A stretch of 32,269 nucleotides of DNA from Nitrospirota bacterium (GTDB lineage Bacteria; Nitrospirota; Leptospirillia; Leptospirillales; Leptospirillaceae): positions 1-32,269 of the forward strand of contig JAJYYA010000071.1 of NCBI GenBank assembly GCA_021801345.1, in the 5' to 3' direction. Positions 4,766-32,042 of this stretch are shown one piece after another. The translations under genes and the position numbers were made by a program. The first letter of the stretch is position 1. Each line of letters starts with the position of its first letter. Below the pieces are notes generated by a model. The model saw only the letters and a list, made by a program, of their open reading frames with translations. It made no database searches and was not told the origin of the DNA.

Positions 4766-5930
4766 TCCCCGCGTGGTCGAGGCAATGCTGCCGACCTTCA
4801 CCGAGGTTTACGGCAATCCCGGCTCCCGCAACCACGCCTTCGGCTGGCAGGCGGAAGAGCTCACGGAAAAGGCCCGGGAAGAGGTCGCGAAATTGATCGG
4901 CGCCGATCCCAAGGAGATTATCTTCACCTCCGGCATGACCGAATCCGACAACCTGGCCATCAAGGGGGTGGCGACCATGTACCGGGAGAAGGGCTCCCAT
5001 ATCGTCACCATCGAGACAGAGGGCCGGTCGGTCCTCGACCCCATCCGCACCCTCGAGACCCAGGGCTTCACCGTCACAGTCCTTCCCGTCGACCGGGGGG
5101 GGATCGTCGATCCCGAGGCTGTCCGCGCCGCCATTCGTCCCGACACCATTCTCGTCTCGATAATGACGGTGAACCATGAGATCGGAACCATCCATCCGAT
5201 CGCACAGATCGGAGCCATCACCCGGGAGAAGGGCGTCCTTTTCCACACCAATGCCGCCTATGCCGCCGGCGTCATGCCCCTCGACGTCAACGAAATGAAC
5301 GTCGACCTTCTCTCCCTGAACGCCCACCTGATGCACGGGCCCAAGGGAGTCGGCGCCCTCTATGTTCGGAGAAAGCCCCGGGTCCGTCTTGCCCCTCAAA
5401 TCGAGGGAGGGGGGCTCGAGCGCGGCTTCCGTTCGGGAACTCTCAACACCTCCGGCATCGTCGGCTTCGGTGCCGCAGCCCGTATCGTCAGAGAGAATCT
5501 CCAAGGCGAGATCGCCCACAGAAAAGATCTTCGGGACCGGCTCGAGTCCGGGATCCTCGAGCTTCTGGACTATGTGGAGATCAACGGAGACCGCGAAAAG
5601 AGAAGTCCCGCAGTCACCAATCTCTCCTTTTCCTTCGTGGAAGGAGAGGCCCTTCTCATGGGTCTGCGCGGCATCGCCCTCGCCTCAGGGTCGGCCTGCA
5701 CCTCCGCCACGCTCGAGCCTTCCTACATTCTCAAGGCTTTGGGTGTCGGCACCGACCTCGCACACTCCTCGATCCGCTTTTCGGTGGGACGCTTCAACAC
5801 AAAGGAAGAGATCGAGGCCGTCATCCTCCGGGTCCGGCAGGCGGTAGAGAAGCTTCGGGAGATGTCCCCGCTCTACGAGATGGCCAAGGAGGGCATCGAC
5901 TTGAAGAGCGTCCAGTGGAGCCCCCACTGA
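4722..5930 (+). CDS. IscS-like protein lacking the PLP lysine (probable pseudo-cysteine desulfurase)
   Basis: Length (402 residues) and sequence follow IscS from end to end, for example YLDNHSTTRVDPRV, FGWQAEEL, VGALYVRRKPRVRLAPQI and LAHSSIRFSVGRF. The PLP site, however, is rebuilt. With a constant offset of three from E. coli numbering, His104 is Gly101 (TEGRSVLD), Asn155 is His152 (VNHEIG), Asp180 is Asn177 and Gln183 is Tyr180 (HTNAAYAAG), and the Schiff-base Lys206 is Leu203 (NAHLMHGPKG). Ala75 is Met72 and the histidine of GGGHERG is leucine. The mobile sulfur loop is kept (SGSACTSA, Cys326), as is the C-terminal IscU-contact region. A protein without the lysine cannot form the internal aldimine, so classical desulfurase activity is not expected. 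It may be a scaffold, persulfide relay or regulator. The frame is intact with AAGGAG before ATG. Confidence 0.9.
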   Translation: MDPVYLDNHSTTRVDPRVVEAMLPTFTEVYGNPGSRNHAFGWQAEELTEKAREEVAKLIGADPKEIIFTSGMTESDNLAIKGVATMYREKGSHIVTIETEGRSVLDPIRTLETQGFTVTVLPVDRGGIVDPEAVRAAIRPDTILVSIMTVNHEIGTIHPIAQIGAITREKGVLFHTNAAYAAGVMPLDVNEMNVDLLSLNAHLMHGPKGVGALYVRRKPRVRLAPQIEGGGLERGFRSGTLNTSGIVGFGAAARIVRENLQGEIAHRKDLRDRLESGILELLDYVEINGDREKRSPAVTNLSFSFVEGEALLMGLRGIALASGSACTSATLEPSYILKALGVGTDLAHSSIRFSVGRFNTKEEIEAVILRVRQAVEKLREMSPLYEMAKEGIDLKSVQWSPH

Positions 5931-5958
5931 GAGTCAAGGGAGCGCCGAAGGAGAAATG

Positions 5959-5977
5959 CCGGGGGAGTTTCTCCCGG
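5959..5977 (+). other. Intercistronic RNA hairpin between the IscS-like gene and iscU
   Basis: CCGGGGGAG and CTCCCGG can pair around TTT with a small bulge in the 83-base gap before iscU. There is no T-run, so it is not a terminator. In other isc operons such hairpins can mark mRNA processing or stabilise the downstream message; that role is inferred here. Confidence 0.4.
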
Positions 5978-6013
5978 AATGAGACCGACACAGACAGATA
6001 GACGGAGACGACC

Positions 6014-6400
6014 ATGGCATACAGCGATAAAGTGATTGACCACTATAACAACCCCCGGAACGTAGGCTCCTTCGACAAGACCGAGGACAACGTCGGAACG
6101 GGGATCGTCGGCGCCCCCGAGTGCGGGGACGTCATGAAGCTCCAGCTCAAGATCACCGACGACGGGATCATCGAGGAGGCCCGATTCAAAACCTTCGGGT
6201 GCGGATCGGCCATCGCGTCGAGCTCCCTGGCCACCGAATGGGTCAAGGGAAAGACGTTGGACGACGCCCTCAAGATCAAAAACACCGAGATCGCCAAGGA
6301 GCTGAACCTCCCGCCCGTCAAGCTTCACTGCTCCGTCCTGGCGGAGGACGCCATCAAGGGAGCGATCGAGGACTACCAGAAGAAGCGCCAGAAGGTCTGA
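6014..6400 (+). CDS. iscU: Iron-sulfur cluster scaffold protein IscU
   Basis: This is a canonical IscU of 128 residues and normal length. The three cluster ligands are present as Cys37 (GAPECGDV), Cys63 (FGCGSAIASSS) and Cys106 (LHCSVLAEDA). Asp39 and the LPPVK motif (99-103), which HscA recognises, are also there. It assembles [2Fe-2S] clusters from iron, electrons supplied by ferredoxin and sulfur supplied by a cysteine desulfurase, and passes them on with HscA/HscB. Because IscU is fully conserved while the neighbouring IscS-like protein has lost its PLP site, the sulfur source for this scaffold is the open question. It is cotranscribed with iscA, 25 bases downstream. Confidence 0.96.
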   Translation: MAYSDKVIDHYNNPRNVGSFDKTEDNVGTGIVGAPECGDVMKLQLKITDDGIIEEARFKTFGCGSAIASSSLATEWVKGKTLDDALKIKNTEIAKELNLPPVKLHCSVLAEDAIKGAIEDYQKKRQKV

Positions 6401-15712: not shown

Positions 15713-15905
15713 GTGATGCCTCCTGGAAGTTCTGGAATAAATGTTTGACCGAGTGACCTTTACGGTATCTGGCGAATCCTTCACATCGATGTCGGATCAC
15801 GCAAACCATGATCTAACAAGAATAATGGCAGACAGGGCTCCTTGTCAATTTGCAGACAAAACTGGAGGCGTGGTAACCTTCGATAATTTCCTCTTCTCCC
15901 CCCCA

Positions 15906-15992
15906 GCCGGAGTGGCGAAACAGGCAGACGCAAGGGACTTAAAATCCCTCGACCGAAAGGTCATACCGGTTCGATCCCGGTCTCCGGCACCA
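15906..15992 (+). tRNA. tRNA-Leu (anticodon UAA)
   Basis: The acceptor arms GCCGGAG (15906-15912) and CTCCGGC (15982-15988) pair perfectly and are followed by A and an encoded CCA. The anticodon stem AGGGA/TCCCT (15933-15937 and 15943-15947) presents TAA at 15940-15942. A long variable arm (CGACCGAAAGGTC) and the T-loop GGTTCGATCC confirm a class II leucine tRNA. It borders the accessory block that follows, a common integration target, though no second copy of its 3' end is seen in the window. Confidence 0.97.
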
Positions 15993-16007
15993 AGCAATAC
16001 AAACACT

Positions 16008-16220
16008 TTATAGCCATATCCCAAAAATCTCTTCAAATATTCTATGGAATTTGTTGCAGTTTTTGTTGCAACGGGCTGGATCGTTCTGTATTCGAGCCTG
16101 AAGAAAGCGCCGGACGGCCGAGTAGCTTCCCGTGTACCCATATCGTCGGCACAAGGTCTTGTGGATCGTCGTCCAACGGATTCCTTCCTGCGCCCATGAG
16201 AGAATCTCCTTCTCCCACAT
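16008..16220 (-). mobile_element. IS21-like transposase (IstA-type) N-terminal remnant
   Basis: The frame encodes 70 residues, of which the first 50 ([22 protein letters not shown] and [17 protein letters not shown]) resemble the helix-turn-helix region of IS21-family IstA transposases, where GYTGSYS is characteristic. After that the match ends, and there is no DDE catalytic core or istB gene. It lies between the tRNA-Leu gene and the cut 3' end of the res gene, suggesting that an insertion followed by deletion created this junction. I see no clear terminal repeats. Confidence 0.5.
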
Positions 16221-16249
16221 CGTGACCGATGATGTGGCCTCCGGACTTC

Positions 16250-16666
16250 TGTAATCTGGAGGGTCTTGTACACGCCCTCCTTGATCGCGATGGATGGCAC
16301 CACTATGACGAACTTCGTAAACCCGTAGCGCTTGTTCAGCTCAAAAATGGTTCGCAGATAGACGTAGGTCTTGCCTGTCCCGGTTTCCATCTCCACCGTG
16401 AAATCGGAAGAGCTCAATGATTTTGAGGGGGACAAGCCGTTTCGGAGCTGGACCTCGTTCAGATTCCTGAGCCACTCGTCATCCAGGAGCGCCAGGCGGT
16501 TTCCGATTCCCAAATCGTTTGGCAAACCCGGAAGATAGGACTTCCCGGGAGCGCTTCTGATAACAGTAAACTCTGTCCGGCAGATCTCCTGTCCCCGGAA
16601 CAGATCGCAGACCGCCTCGATCGCGGCGTGCTGATAATCGAGATTGGATTCAAAGTGCAGCTTCAT
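16250..16666 (-). pseudogene. res: Type III restriction endonuclease subunit Res, N-terminal fragment
   Basis: About 139 residues match the start of type III Res proteins: [19 protein letters not shown], the Walker A block [16 protein letters not shown] and [22 protein letters not shown]. After residue 139 the similarity ends abruptly near 16250. The open frame runs on through unrelated DNA and antisense through the tRNA, which is meaningless. Roughly 80 percent of a normal Res (about 900-1000 residues), including the other helicase motifs and the nuclease domain, is missing, so restriction cannot occur. ATG 16664-16666 overlaps the stop of the RhuM gene (ATGA), showing that the two were once coupled. 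Confidence 0.85.
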
Positions 16667-17688
16667 TTTTTCTTTCCTTTGGGATTGGGCAGCTTTTTCG
16701 CAGTCATTTCCAAAGCCTTGGTCATATCCACCTCCACCGGAGCAGGGAGCGCGTCCAGTTGATGCCGATAGTTCTCGTACTCTGCTTCGGCTTTCATGCG
16801 CGCCGCTTCGGCAGATACTCGCCCCGCATGGGTCAGCACGTCGTGATCGCCCAACTTCAAAAAGTCGTCAAGCTTCTTGATCCACGCCTCCATGGTCATG
16901 GGGCGTCGACCGAGTGCCTGCAACTCCGCAAACTCCAGATAAGCCACCACAATCCGGTTCAACATCTCAAGCTCTTCTGCACTCAAATAGTTCTTGGCAA
17001 CAGACACTTCCGAACGGAGCGGGCGAAGGCCGGAAAAACTGGTCAGGCCCATATTGGGCTGACTGGCATCGGCACGTCGGTCGATCACTTCCGCGGCCGT
17101 TTGACCGTGGGCCGCCCAATGCATTTTGTTCTGGATGGTGGCAAAAAACTGTTTCGACGCATCGGCTGAAGGGTCATAATCGATGCTGGTGGCATAGATA
17201 TCCAGAACCTTTCGCCAGAACACCTTTTCCGACGAACGAATATCTCGGATACGTTCAAGGAGTTGCTCAAAATAGACTCCTGTATCCGGGTTCTTCAGGC
17301 GTTCGTCGTCCATCACGAAGCCCTTGACCAGATACTCATTCAGTTGGGTCGTGGCCCAGCGGCGAAACTGGGTGCCGCGCATCGAACGTACCCGGTAGCC
17401 GACCGCCAGAATGGCACTCAGGTTGTAATATTCCACCCGGTAGCGTTTGCCGTCTGCGGCAGTTGTCAACCAGGAGTTGACAACTGAATCCTGGACCAGT
17501 TCACCCTCTGCAAAGATCGCCTTCAGATGTTTCGCGATATTTTGCTTGCTGGTCTGAAAGAGCTCCGCCATGCCCGCCTGCGACATCCACAGATTTTCAT
17601 TGGCAAAACGACACTCGACACGGCTCTGACCGTCCTCGGTCTGATACAGCAAAAACTCCCCACCGGGAACAGGTGTGTTTTCGCTCAT
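16663..17688 (-). CDS. rhuM: RhuM-family protein
   Basis: This intact 341-residue protein belongs to the RhuM family, named from a Salmonella pathogenicity island: [43 protein letters not shown] and [17 protein letters not shown]. The first block looks like a DNA-binding helix-turn-helix, and the rest resembles the KilA-N/Bro-type phage regulator region. Biochemical function is not established. ATG 17688 lies two bases after the mod stop codon and the gene runs into res, so it sits inside a type III restriction-modification operon. It is the only gene of that operon still complete. Members of the family are frequently found with restriction systems and may act in defence or its control. Confidence 0.88.
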
Positions 17689-17690
17689 CC

Positions 17691-18920
17691 TCACAAGCTC
17701 CGCAGGTTCCGGATGCCGGACTGCTCAAGAACCGCGGCCAGATTGGTCTTGACCACATCGCTTGCGAAGCCGCTGTCGCGAAAGATGCATGTCGTTTCCC
17801 CCGTCGGAGCGAGTTCTTTATGCCAGACCACAAGGCCTTGGGCGAATGGTTCGACCTCTTCGCGAGTAATGGTTTCGGCCAGACAGACCATCAGAACCCC
17901 GTCCCCGATACTATGCACCGTTTTACCCGCAATGAGGCGTTTCTCGATGGGAACGCACAGATCCAGTCCCAGCTTGATCAGGAGCTCATAGAGAATGTCG
18001 TCTTCCGTACGATCCATCTTGATGTGCTCAATATGAGCGCGAATGGATTGTTCCAGATTTTCGGGATTCGGATCCCAGGACCGGATGTTGGAAGAATCAA
18101 GCTTGAAAACGCGAAAACCAAGGTCGCCGGGAAACATCTGGTTCTCTTTTTTGATTTTCCTGATTGCACGACGGAGACGTTCTTTTGTGATTTCGGCAAT
18201 TGTGGGAAATTGCTGGTTTTCCGTAGGTTCCGGAAGCTGCACAAGGACAAATCGGCGATGACCGCCATCCAATTGATTGATTTCAAAAACGGCTTGCCCC
18301 ATGGTCCCTGAACCGGCAAAGAAATCCACACACAGCGCAGCCGGATCAGCGATCCATGTCATGATCCGTGTCAAAAGATCGACGGGCTTCGGAAAGGTAA
18401 AAACATCATTGAGCCCCAAAGGCTTCAAATCTGCCGTTCCCCGGTCATTTGTGATGTCATCTAAAAAATCTCTGGGACGAATTCCTTCTTCCAAGCGATC
18501 TTCCAGATAATATTTGGTGTAAACATTCCATGACGACTGTGATCGGTCTGGCGTCTGCAGTGGACTTTTTGCTGTTTTCTTAAAAACAATCAGATCCTTT
18601 TTCTTCAAATAAGAATCAAAACTCCATCTCCAAACACGATCCTCTGAACTTTGCGGAATAGCATTCACCCCATCCGCAATCTCAGCGGGGAAGGTGTTTC
18701 CAGGAGGAATGGCAAATGTTCCATCGGGGCACTGGATCCAATACCTCTGATTGGGGCGGGGATCCAATGCCGCTTGATAAAGGCCAACCAACGCATAATC
18801 TCCCCGATCATCCTTGCCGTCGAATCTATCCGCATACTTTTCATCCACCACGTCCATAAAAGGCGGGAGTGATTCTATGTTTTTCGCATAAACGAGCAGT
18901 TGTTTTGTTTTCCTTTTTCT
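17691..18920 (-). pseudogene. mod: Type III DNA methyltransferase subunit Mod, 5'-truncated
   Basis: The open frame holds the C-terminal part of a beta-class adenine methyltransferase. It contains the SAM-binding motif DFFAGSGTMGQAV, upstream blocks such as TKYYLEDRLEEGIRPRDFLDD and DVFTFPKPVDLL, and the downstream family tail. The catalytic DPPY motif and the N-terminal third are missing. The match can be followed past the first ATG (18857) up to about 18920, where KTKQLLVYAKNIESLPPF is still Mod-like but no start codon or ribosome site exists. An in-frame TAA lies just beyond. A shortened protein from ATG 18857 would lack catalysis. Confidence 0.85.
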
Positions 18921-19040: not shown

Positions 19041-19328
19041 TCAAGCCGCACTCACATGCACATCCACATGGATTCCCACTTTAGAAAGCATCTTCACTAG
19101 GGCATCGATACTGAACTTTTGGATCTTTCCCTGAAGCAGATCGTTCAGTCGAGGTTGTGTAATTCCAAGTTTTTTCGCCGCTTCTCTTTGGCTCAACTTC
19201 GATCTCTCAACAAACCGTTCAACTTCGATCATCAATCGGGACCGGATCATGAGATGTTCCGCCTCAGTTTCCGAAAATCCCAGATCATTAAAAACATTCT
19301 CCGACCCTTCTTCCCATTCCGGATTCAT
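19041..19328 (-). CDS. higA: HigA-type antitoxin (helix-turn-helix)
   Basis: The 95-residue protein ends in an XRE-type helix-turn-helix, LSQREAAKKLGITQPRLNDLLQGKI. Similar short proteins with an acidic N-terminus (MNPEWEEGSENVF) are antitoxins that pair with phage Gp49-like toxins. Its start overlaps the toxin stop (ATGA at 19325-19328), giving the toxin-first order typical of higBA. It should neutralise the toxin and repress the shared promoter. Confidence 0.85.
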   Translation of the reverse strand: MNPEWEEGSENVFNDLGFSETEAEHLMIRSRLMIEVERFVERSKLSQREAAKKLGITQPRLNDLLQGKIQKFSIDALVKMLSKVGIHVDVHVSAA

Positions 19329-19654
19329 ATCCGTCTCTCCTTTAAAACCTGGTTCAATCTTTCCCGAGCTAACTCAAGATCACGCTGGGAAGTTCTTTGA
19401 GTTTTCTTCACGAACGAGTGAAGGATATACAACGCCTCCTCGAACTGTGCGACATAGATGATCCGATATTCGTTTTCCGCATGAATGCGGATCTCCCGCA
19501 CACCGGGACCAATTCCACGTAGGAGCTTCCAGTCTTTCGGATCGCATCCCTCCTGAAGACGATAGATCTGGTAGCCGGCTTCTTTTCGGGCCATTCTGGA
19601 AAATTGCTGCCGAAGATCTTTTTTCGCACTCCCGATCCAGATCACTCTCTTCAT
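19325..19654 (-). CDS. higB: HigB/Gp49-like toxin of the RelE/ParE superfamily
   Basis: The 109-residue protein has the RelE-fold pattern of the phage-derived Gp49-like group: MKRVIWIGSAKKDLRQQF, DWKLLRGIGPGVREIRI, and EYRIIYVAQFEEALYILHSFVKKTQRTSQRDLELA. The segment HSFVKKTQRTS is a strong family marker. Such toxins usually cut ribosome-bound mRNA. It is the first gene of a two-gene operon with the antitoxin and has its own promoter at 19669-19696. Confidence 0.87.
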   Translation of the reverse strand: MKRVIWIGSAKKDLRQQFSRMARKEAGYQIYRLQEGCDPKDWKLLRGIGPGVREIRIHAENEYRIIYVAQFEEALYILHSFVKKTQRTSQRDLELARERLNQVLKERRI

Positions 19655-30658: not shown

Positions 30659-30808
30659 TCAGGGATCTTCCCGTTGCGGGCTTTCGCGGTTCCGGGGGGA
30701 CAAAAGAGCGGAGCCTCCCCCCGCAACAAACAGCGCGGCTCCGGAGAGGGCCACCCCCGACAGGAGAAGAAGGGTCCGGTCGTATCCCACAGATCGAGGA
30801 GCGGACCC
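30659..30808 (-). pseudogene. C-terminal remnant of a multi-pass (probably MFS) transporter
   Basis: The minus-strand frame reads LGSAPRSVGYDRTLLLLSGV, then ALSGAALFVAGGG and a short basic tail before TGA (30661-30659). VGYDRTLLLL followed by a hydrophobic helix and a charged tail is the usual ending of major facilitator transporters. The frame has coding-type codon use but begins exactly at the MITE-like element at 30809, and no continuation is seen beyond it. Insertion with loss of the upstream part probably destroyed the gene. Confidence 0.5.
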
Positions 30809-30982
30809 TAGGAGCCTAGGAAATAAGTCTCAAAAACGTCTTTATTGAAAAATATTCCCCACTATTCATACATTTTGAGGGAGAAAGAATTCTTTGTTCC
30901 CACTTGTTTCATGGAAATGACATTATAATCGAAACAAATTTCCACCCTCATGGATTTTTTTGACTTATTTCCCAGGCTCCTA
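30809..30982. mobile_element. MITE-like element with 19-bp terminal inverted repeats and TA flanks
   Basis: The left end GGAGCCTAGGAAATAAGTC (30811-30829) and the inverted right end, GGAGCCTGGGAAATAAGTC as read inwards (30980-30962), agree at 18 of 19 bases. TA lies directly outside both ends (30809-30810 and 30981-30982), matching the target duplication of IS630/Tc1-mariner transposons. The 132-base interior is AT-rich and has no gene. The element is too short to move itself and would need a transposase elsewhere. Confidence 0.72.
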
Positions 30983-31119
30983 GACAACGTCCGAATACCA
31001 CCCATAATTACCCGCCAAATCAGGACAATTCGTCGAAGAACGAGGCGTAGGACCTGTCGGGCAATAGGACGTGAGGAAAAATGGGTATAATCTCGGTAGC
31101 TCAGGCATTTTAAGAAGGT

Positions 31120-31764
31120 CTAGAAGTAGAGCTTTTTCAGATCAAGAACTTTTTCCAAACAAGAAAACCACGACGAGGTATTGAACTCGAAATGGGATTG
31201 AATGGCACCGGCGAGTAAATCCGCAAATTGCAGGTTCAAGCAATGTTGGCTGTCCGTTGGAGTCGTTGTAAGTCTGGTGTTGGAATTTTTATCAAATAGA
31301 AGTCCGTACACGAGATAGTCGTGCATGCCATTCCCGGATTCGACCTTCATAGAACGGCGATCCGGGATCAATTCAACCGATTCGTGTTGGGCTATACTCT
31401 CCAAAAGAAGCAATTTTGTCATATAGTTGTAAAGTTTATTGGGATCACTTCGGATATGGTCTGCCACGTTTACCTTGTTCACAACAATCGCCCGGTATTG
31501 TATTTTCTTGTTTACTTTGGCCAACACGGCTGCAGTTTTCGCAAATTCAGTTTTCCCGGATTTTGACAGTCCTGCCCATTTCTTCTCGCCTCTACTCCAA
31601 TGCTGGGATATGTATAGCTGGCGTAAACGTCGTTCAGTCAAGCGGTTGGCATCTTGCAGAACTAAAAGAGCTGCAAGCGTAAGAAATCGACTGGACCCGC
31701 CACGCAAATAAGGAGCAGAGAAGTTCCACCCGAGATCCCCGCTTTCGTCGAGATAGATTTGCAT
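31120..31764 (-). CDS. DUF3800 domain protein
   Basis: The 214-residue protein starts MQIYLDESGDLGWNFS, whose acidic residues Asp6, Glu7 and Asp10 are the DUF3800 hallmark. Near the end it has NLQFADLLAGAIQSHFE, the second conserved acidic motif. The family is thought to have an RNase H-like fold with metal-binding acids, and many members occur in phage, plasmid and defence regions. Biochemical activity is not firmly known. ATG 31764 is chosen because GGGGGA lies just upstream and the domain begins there. The in-frame ATG at 31869 lies within the structured leader. The gene is preceded by the leader RNA at 31765-31905 and its terminator-like hairpin. Confidence 0.82.
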   Translation of the reverse strand: MQIYLDESGDLGWNFSAPYLRGGSSRFLTLAALLVLQDANRLTERRLRQLYISQHWSRGEKKWAGLSKSGKTEFAKTAAVLAKVNKKIQYRAIVVNKVNVADHIRSDPNKLYNYMTKLLLLESIAQHESVELIPDRRSMKVESGNGMHDYLVYGLLFDKNSNTRLTTTPTDSQHCLNLQFADLLAGAIQSHFEFNTSSWFSCLEKVLDLKKLYF

Positions 31765-31905
31765 TGTCCCCCAAAAAATAAAAAGGCCCCACCACATTAG
31801 GTTGGGGCCAAAATTATTAGCAGACCCTGAGTCCCACGCGTTAACACCGCGTTTAGGATCCCGTTGCATGGGGGTCCGGGTTTGCTCAGGTTTTACCTGC
31901 CGCTT
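31765..31905 (-). ncRNA. Structured leader RNA of the DUF3800 gene, closed by a terminator hairpin
   Basis: From a start near 31905 the RNA can form P1 (GCAG 31900-31897 with CTGC 31823-31820). Next comes P2 (CCTGAG 31890-31885 with CTCAGG 31831-31826). Within it are two hairpins: CCCG (31880-31877) with CGGG (31863-31860), and ACGCG (31852-31848) with CGCGT (31840-31836). A terminator-type hairpin follows (GGCCCCAACC 31809-31800 with GGTGGGGCC 31793-31785, one bulge), then TTTTTATTTTTT (31784-31773). The ribosome site GGGGG begins next. The loop sequence CCCCCA (31874-31869) can pair with TGGGGG at that site. Structured RNA motifs upstream of DUF3800 genes have been described by comparative genomics; membership here is untested. 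It may be a separate small RNA, an attenuator, or both. Confidence 0.6.
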
Positions 31906-31910
31906 TTTTT

Positions 31911-31952
31911 AACATACGGCATGACGCCGATAAGTGTCAACAATTATCGGCG
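31911..31952 (-). promoter_or_regulatory. Promoter of the DUF3800 RNA with a palindrome over the -35 element
   Basis: On the minus strand TTGACA (31940-31935) and TATGTT (31916-31911) are 18 bases apart. A perfect nine-base inverted repeat, CGCCGATAA (31925-31933) and TTATCGGCG (31944-31952), brackets the -35 hexamer. This looks like an operator for a dimeric repressor. Confidence 0.68.
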
Positions 31953-32042
31953 GGTGGGGTGAGCGACATATTTTAGGACCTCCCCCCAGTCAATGCTCTT
32001 CAAACATAGGGGCCAATCAAAGTACTGACAAAGAATACTTTT

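Follow-up and report, generated by a model that had tools for sequence, protein, structure and literature searches.

A mobile DUF3800 gene behind a covarying structured RNA, and phage copies of the RNA without the gene

The window, i.e. the whole stretch of DNA analysed here, is a complete contig of 32,269 nt (G000:C29) of a Nitrospirota bacterium. A unit composed of a structured RNA and a DUF3800 gene lies at the contig end on the minus strand and includes the following features.

31911..31940, minus strand: sigma-70-like promoter (-35 TTGACA at 31940-31935, 18-nt spacer, -10 TATGTT at 31916-31911)
31817..31903, minus strand: structured RNA, DUF3800-I-like, ~87 nt (covariance model and covariation)
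31900-31897/31823-31820, minus strand: RNA helix P1
31890-31886/31830-31826, minus strand: RNA helix P2
31880-31878/31835-31833, minus strand: RNA helix P3
31877-31875/31858-31856 and 31873-31871/31862-31860, minus strand: RNA helix P4
31852-31847/31841-31836, minus strand: RNA helix P5
31773..31809, minus strand: intrinsic terminator (hairpin 31809-31785, U-tract 31784-31773)
31768..31772, minus strand: Shine-Dalgarno-like GGGGG, from the sequence (ATG at 31764)
31120..31764, minus strand: DUF3800 gene, intact, 214 aa, ATG start (PF12686 match)

The initial annotation of this DNA proposed the order promoter, RNA, terminator and protein gene, and each of these is found at the place it gave, on the minus strand. 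The -35 and -10 elements have 10 of 12 matches to the consensus in a consensus scan, in a region with seven promoter-like sites against 1.8 expected, and similar elements are found equally far upstream of the RNA in many relatives. The predicted transcript to the U-tract is ~130 nt long. The terminator hairpin (-18.3 kcal/mol, z -3.1; none of 200 shuffled sequences as stable) is indeed located just before the ribosome binding site, with GGGGG directly after the U-tract.

The same annotation described the RNA as a closed multibranched structure of a kind associated with DUF3800 genes. The fold of the single window sequence is unconvincing in this respect (87-nt minimum free energy, z -1.9) and differs from the consensus, but the comparison with relatives is decisive. 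We aligned 24 RNAs including that of the window by MAFFT and imposed one shared structure, made up of the outer helix P1, P2, P3 and a three-way junction of which P4 and P5 are two arms. Standard pairs occupy 98.4% of cells, compared with 82.9% in shuffled and 31.6–39.8% in slid alignments. The covariation score is 0.511 versus 0.201 after shuffling, none of 500 shuffles reaches any of the five measures used, and RNAalifold recovers the identical structure unaided. The compensatory changes that the annotation had suggested looking for in homologous leaders were found: 17 of the 24 pairs are changed on both sides. The window RNA forms 23 of the 24 consensus pairs, the consensus fold being 0.5 kcal/mol above its minimum, and has a double change of its own in P3 (C-G versus G-C in the 23 others). 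The covariance model R1 assigns it 75.6 bits (E 3e-21), the window being one of the model's 24 members. The RNA is thus a genuine, old, covarying structured RNA, conserved across phyla; it is called real because of the covariation in 24 relatives, not because of its own single-sequence fold. The alignment of the 24 RNAs shows no obvious variable stretch resembling a guide, and a reading as guide RNA was dropped on this ground.

The known motif DUF3800-I (RF02969) is reportedly one of the structured RNA candidates described by Weinberg et al. 2017. Its model matches the window over the full length (31911-31775) with 23 bits, below the gathering score of 44.2 bits. Five of ten tested relatives also match full length (1-115) below the threshold, at 27.3–35.5 bits, and none of 16 loci reaches the gathering score; Rfam at gathering thresholds finds a tRNA and nothing else in the window. 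A search with RF02969 over 148 genomes of the phylum returned nothing and is uninformative, since the controls were silent too. The window RNA shares with DUF3800-I the nested-helix core UAAGCG-(hairpin with UGUAA loop)-CGCCGG, the 3' hairpin terminator with U-tract, and the association with DUF3800. In contrast to DUF3800-I, the window group has the outer helix P1 enclosing the core, which is not in the Rfam consensus, and a longer P4, and P1 plus the U-tract is often itself the terminator. The Rfam comparison that the annotation had recommended therefore agrees in core and terminator and falls short in score, and by sequence the RNA is better placed in a diverged sister group of DUF3800-I than among its formal members. 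RNA versions remain recognisable in most of the distant relatives (L034, L038, L039, L041 and L042). A 25%-identical Ligilactobacillus protein has no recognisable RNA, and an archaeal locus (L019, 22%-identical protein) has a DUF3800-X RNA downstream of the gene on the opposite strand.

The DUF3800 protein matches PF12686 over residues 3-190 (E 2e-11, 45 bits; gathering cut-off 21 bits), phrog_9243 (E 7e-61) and the PADLOC family PDC-M04A (E 2e-13), which PADLOC lists as a phage-defence candidate and whose name is untraceable in the literature searched. Searches of the PDB by sequence and of NCBIfam yielded nothing for this protein. An AlphaFold2 model based on 21 relatives has a pLDDT of 93.2 and a pTM of 0.90, and its best Foldseek matches among solved structures are all RNase HII (E 1e-5, TM about 0.5). 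Residues D6, E7, D135 and D182 are invariant in the protein alignments, presumably in the order expected for an RNase HII-type site. Comparison of DUF3800 proteins (A4) with 16 RNase HII proteins by hhalign gave probabilities of 0.1–0.5%, i.e. no profile relationship, and because of this result we restrict the claim to an RNase HII-like fold. The RNase HII-like fold is a high-confidence prediction, and the protein is a putative RNA-cutting enzyme of the RNase H type. An RNase H fold was also predicted for DUF3800 in PMC10910872. Separately, an RNase HII gene was not found in the window's genome, while it is present in 20 of 20 relatives searched; an assembly gap is possible (97% complete).

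A protein scan of bacterial genomes revealed 16 relatives. The 15 clear ones (L004-L018, 36–52% identity) span Pseudomonadota, desulfo-bacteria, Chloroflexota, Verrucomicrobia and others, and their upstream regions bear the same RNA; the examined relatives in cellular genomes and on plasmids have the RNA upstream too. When IMG/VR was searched by protein alignment, 74 loci were obtained. In 73 of them the RNA model locates the RNA ahead of the gene; these are not 73 independent events, as many are near-identical Acinetobacter prophages. In the remaining viral locus (L096) the contig ends 15 bases before the match. For 34 chosen loci, RNA distances correlate with protein distances (Mantel r 0.75, reached in 0 of 5000 permutations), as expected if both move together. 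These data support an obligate and co-inherited pairing of RNA and protein.

The terminator, which the annotation had called leaky, is common but not obligatory. It lies between RNA and gene in 25 of the 34 loci, either as a separate hairpin with a T-run (16 loci, 2.5 expected from shuffling; the window belongs to this class) or as P1 directly followed by a T-run (nine loci), and is missing in the other nine, mostly from one Pseudomonas lineage. The terminator hairpins differ in sequence between groups and are often non-homologous; therefore the function is kept, not the sequence.

The gene differs in composition from its surroundings, with 45% G+C and a GC3 of 0.50 versus 59% in the window and a GC3 of 0.75–0.79 in four other genes. 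Among 61 genomes searched (its own and 60 relatives), a relative of the protein was found in one other (25% identical) and the RNA in no other. By sequence, the module most likely arrived from outside. Relatives of the protein are found on plasmids of nine genera and in Acinetobacter phages, and prophage neighbours include CI-type repressors (L010, L011, L013), antirepressors (L034 and, weakly, L014) and a single-strand binding protein (L016). The RNA and the DUF3800 gene form a two-part unit travelling on phages, prophages and plasmids.

Several other observations concern the cargo of such replicons and of the window. The Acinetobacter pittii plasmid pIEC338SCOX has the DUF3800-RNA unit (L036, 3039-3692) together with VapBC and blaOXA-72, and on a Rhizobium plasmid an ABC-three-component gene set follows the DUF3800 gene (L041, 6251-9872). 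In the window, a MITE-like element of 176 bp at 30808-30983 has inverted ends of ~29 bp that are 90% alike, with a second copy (84%) at G000:C47:13311-13487. The open reading frames at 15845-18857 include a ResIII/DEAD fragment, a RhuM protein and, after them, a methylase-like frame (by eye from the translation); tRNA-Leu at 15906-15992 overlaps the end of the ResIII frame, so that this gene seems to have been cut short at a tRNA insertion site. At 19041-19654 an HTH_37/HTH_3 protein adjoins a RelE/HigB-sized frame in a type II toxin-antitoxin layout.

The RNA also exists without the gene. IMG/VR was scanned for the RNA independently of the gene with two patterns, built from gene-linked RNAs, and matches were confirmed by the model; L092 was rejected as a false pattern match. 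Among 36 confirmed viral RNA contigs, 21 have the gene, two near-identical ones have a remnant and 13 lack it; these 13 make up about six groups, and independent cases should be counted by group, not by contig. The new finding here is that the RNA occurs without its gene, in 13 of 36 viral RNA matches and about six lineages. One group comprises six Pseudomonas phages with the RNA between the late regulator and the lysis genes, and the P. aeruginosa phage-plasmid pSRV_K_1 has an RNA-only copy at the same site, within a ~100-bp cassette that is missing from D3 and P7869, whose sites match otherwise. In the remaining groups, two copies lie upstream of the large terminase gene, two have a KilA-N-type regulator next, and three are single cases. 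The Pseudomonas group keeps the helices (62–70 bits), and in P4 an A-U pair, invariant in the 24 gene-linked RNAs, is replaced on both sides by G-C. The RNA is absent from nine Pseudomonas phages that share homology in the surroundings of the orphan site. A search of E. coli genomes for the RNA gave no match, nor did the Pseudomonas, orphan and L054 RNAs as queries against named phages. In L063 and the near-identical L068, the RNA is kept and the gene reduced to a short fragment. L059 and L069 have another gene replacing DUF3800 and an RNA identical to that of L022, and therefore the gene loss is recent. A metagenome-assembled genome labelled Janthinobacterium (L009, 2389-6051) has four RNA-terminator units, two with and two without a DUF3800 gene.

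Two further observations were made in these searches. The Pseudomonas phage late region from the Q-type regulator to the holin (L076 at 5840-6320, L077, L080, L083-L085) is a mosaic in which short noncoding cassettes vary from phage to phage, one of them being the DUF3800-I-like RNA. The genome of L005 has a second RNA copy at G149:C165:363-448 (57.7 bits).

The initial annotation compared the layout with ToxIN-type loci. Type III toxin-antitoxin systems (ToxIN, CptIN, TenpIN; PMC5086642) likewise have one promoter, an RNA, a Rho-independent terminator and a protein gene, and are found on plasmids and chromosomes. The antitoxin RNA of these systems consists of tandem repeats, whereas no direct repeats were found in 31765-31960 and the leaders of relatives hold a single motif; their toxins have the ToxN/AbiQ fold, whereas here Pfam finds DUF3800 only, without a ToxN match, and the fold matches in the PDB are RNase HII. 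Given the single-copy RNA and the predicted RNase HII-like fold, membership in the ToxIN-type family is not supported. Another comparable system is AbiF/RCd22 of a C. difficile prophage, where a structured RNA with a terminator precedes the gene of a toxic nuclease-like protein and neutralises it in cis and in trans (PMC12373285). The DUF3800 pair, known here from sequence alone, is laid out in the same way, with the structured RNA and its terminator ahead of a prophage gene; it differs in that the Abi_2/AbiF protein is linked to Cas13 and its RNA has two abiF motifs, versus an RNase HII-like protein and one RNA motif. DUF3800 proteins are also accessories of Cas12a2-type and VI-F loci, with a proposed role in interference or crRNA handling (PMC10910872, PMC12669027). 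These share the domain and the predicted RNase H fold with the window protein, which in contrast is stand-alone, has 214 aa and lacks TPR. The window has no visible CRISPR locus, and the accessory role described for other DUF3800 proteins was set aside, as there is no sign of it here. In the literature searched, no function is described for the DUF3800 RNA motifs.

We propose, with a probability of roughly 0.55, that the unit is a module resembling type III toxin-antitoxin and abortive-infection systems, although its protein fold is unrelated and its RNA is single-copy. The main product of its one promoter would be a short terminated RNA, and read-through would add a little mRNA for the RNase H-fold nuclease, so that the terminator would keep the RNA in excess over the mRNA. 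The conserved three-way junction RNA would most likely be recognised by the nuclease and hold it inactive in trans. A phage that disrupts host transcription would cause loss of the RNA, the nuclease would be freed and the infection aborted. The binding of RNA to protein, the nuclease activity, toxicity, neutralisation and the phage trigger are steps that we infer. AbiF/RCd22 (PMC12373285) shows this mode of action to be feasible for a prophage protein that has another fold and is encoded behind a structured RNA. The occurrence of the RNA without the gene, but not of the gene without the RNA, is what a protein that does harm in the absence of its RNA would lead one to expect, and the phage RNA-only copies suggest, though they do not prove, that the enzyme is restrained by the RNA.

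The main rival, which we consider unlikely, is an RNA-dependent effector: as with RNA-guided enzymes of the RNase H fold, the nuclease would be inactive without the RNA as cofactor, scaffold or sensor, and the active ribonucleoprotein would attack invading nucleic acid. The obligate pairing, the co-variation of RNA and protein, the modelled RNase H-like fold and the DUF3800 accessories of Cas12a2-type and VI-F loci would fit such an effector. However, the 24 aligned RNAs lack an apparent variable segment that could serve as guide, a terminator before the gene would starve the ribonucleoprotein of protein, and RNA-only phage copies are hard to explain if the RNA merely activates the protein. 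The same copies weigh against attenuation, the second possibility of the initial annotation, in which the RNA sets only the read-through into DUF3800, like a riboswitch and perhaps with autoregulation by the bound protein. The leader position, the terminator right before the ribosome binding site and the short gap to the gene are those of an attenuator, but intact RNA copies have nothing of the gene behind them, nine of 34 loci lack a terminator, and the DUF3800-X RNA of L019, downstream and on the opposite strand, cannot be a leader. As the RNA is found without the gene but the gene not without the RNA, restraint in trans is favoured over attenuation, which we regard as improbable.

The RNA-only copies may themselves be decaying leftovers of gene loss and functionally uninformative, which is compatible with any mechanism. 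Such an origin is plausible for L063 and L068 with their gene fragment, and for L059 and L069 with recent replacement of DUF3800. As an account of the orphans as a whole it is doubtful, since the Pseudomonas group keeps its helices and scores with a two-sided replacement in P4, and the RNA cassette is missing from the homologous site of D3 and P7869. An analogous case is the pseudo-ToxI of phage PhiTE, a phage RNA that is similar to the RNA component of a bacterial RNA-protein module and for which escape was shown experimentally (PMC3475682). In both cases the phage carries the RNA without the protein; unlike PhiTE, the RNA-only DUF3800 phages are mostly temperate and known from their genomes only. 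By analogy, the RNA-only copies could act as PhiTE-like decoys, or be relics. We tentatively speculate that the pairs might constitute a protein-RNA toxin-antitoxin class of their own based on an RNase HII-like nuclease, with solo phage RNAs as decoy antitoxins against the pairs of rival prophages and plasmids.

The pair is compact and intact, with a confident structure model (pLDDT 93) and a covarying RNA, and the RNA-only phage copies predict the direction of the interaction, namely that the RNA restrains the protein. If true, the toxins neutralised by RNA would gain a new fold, and phage RNA mimicry, as in PhiTE, would gain another example.
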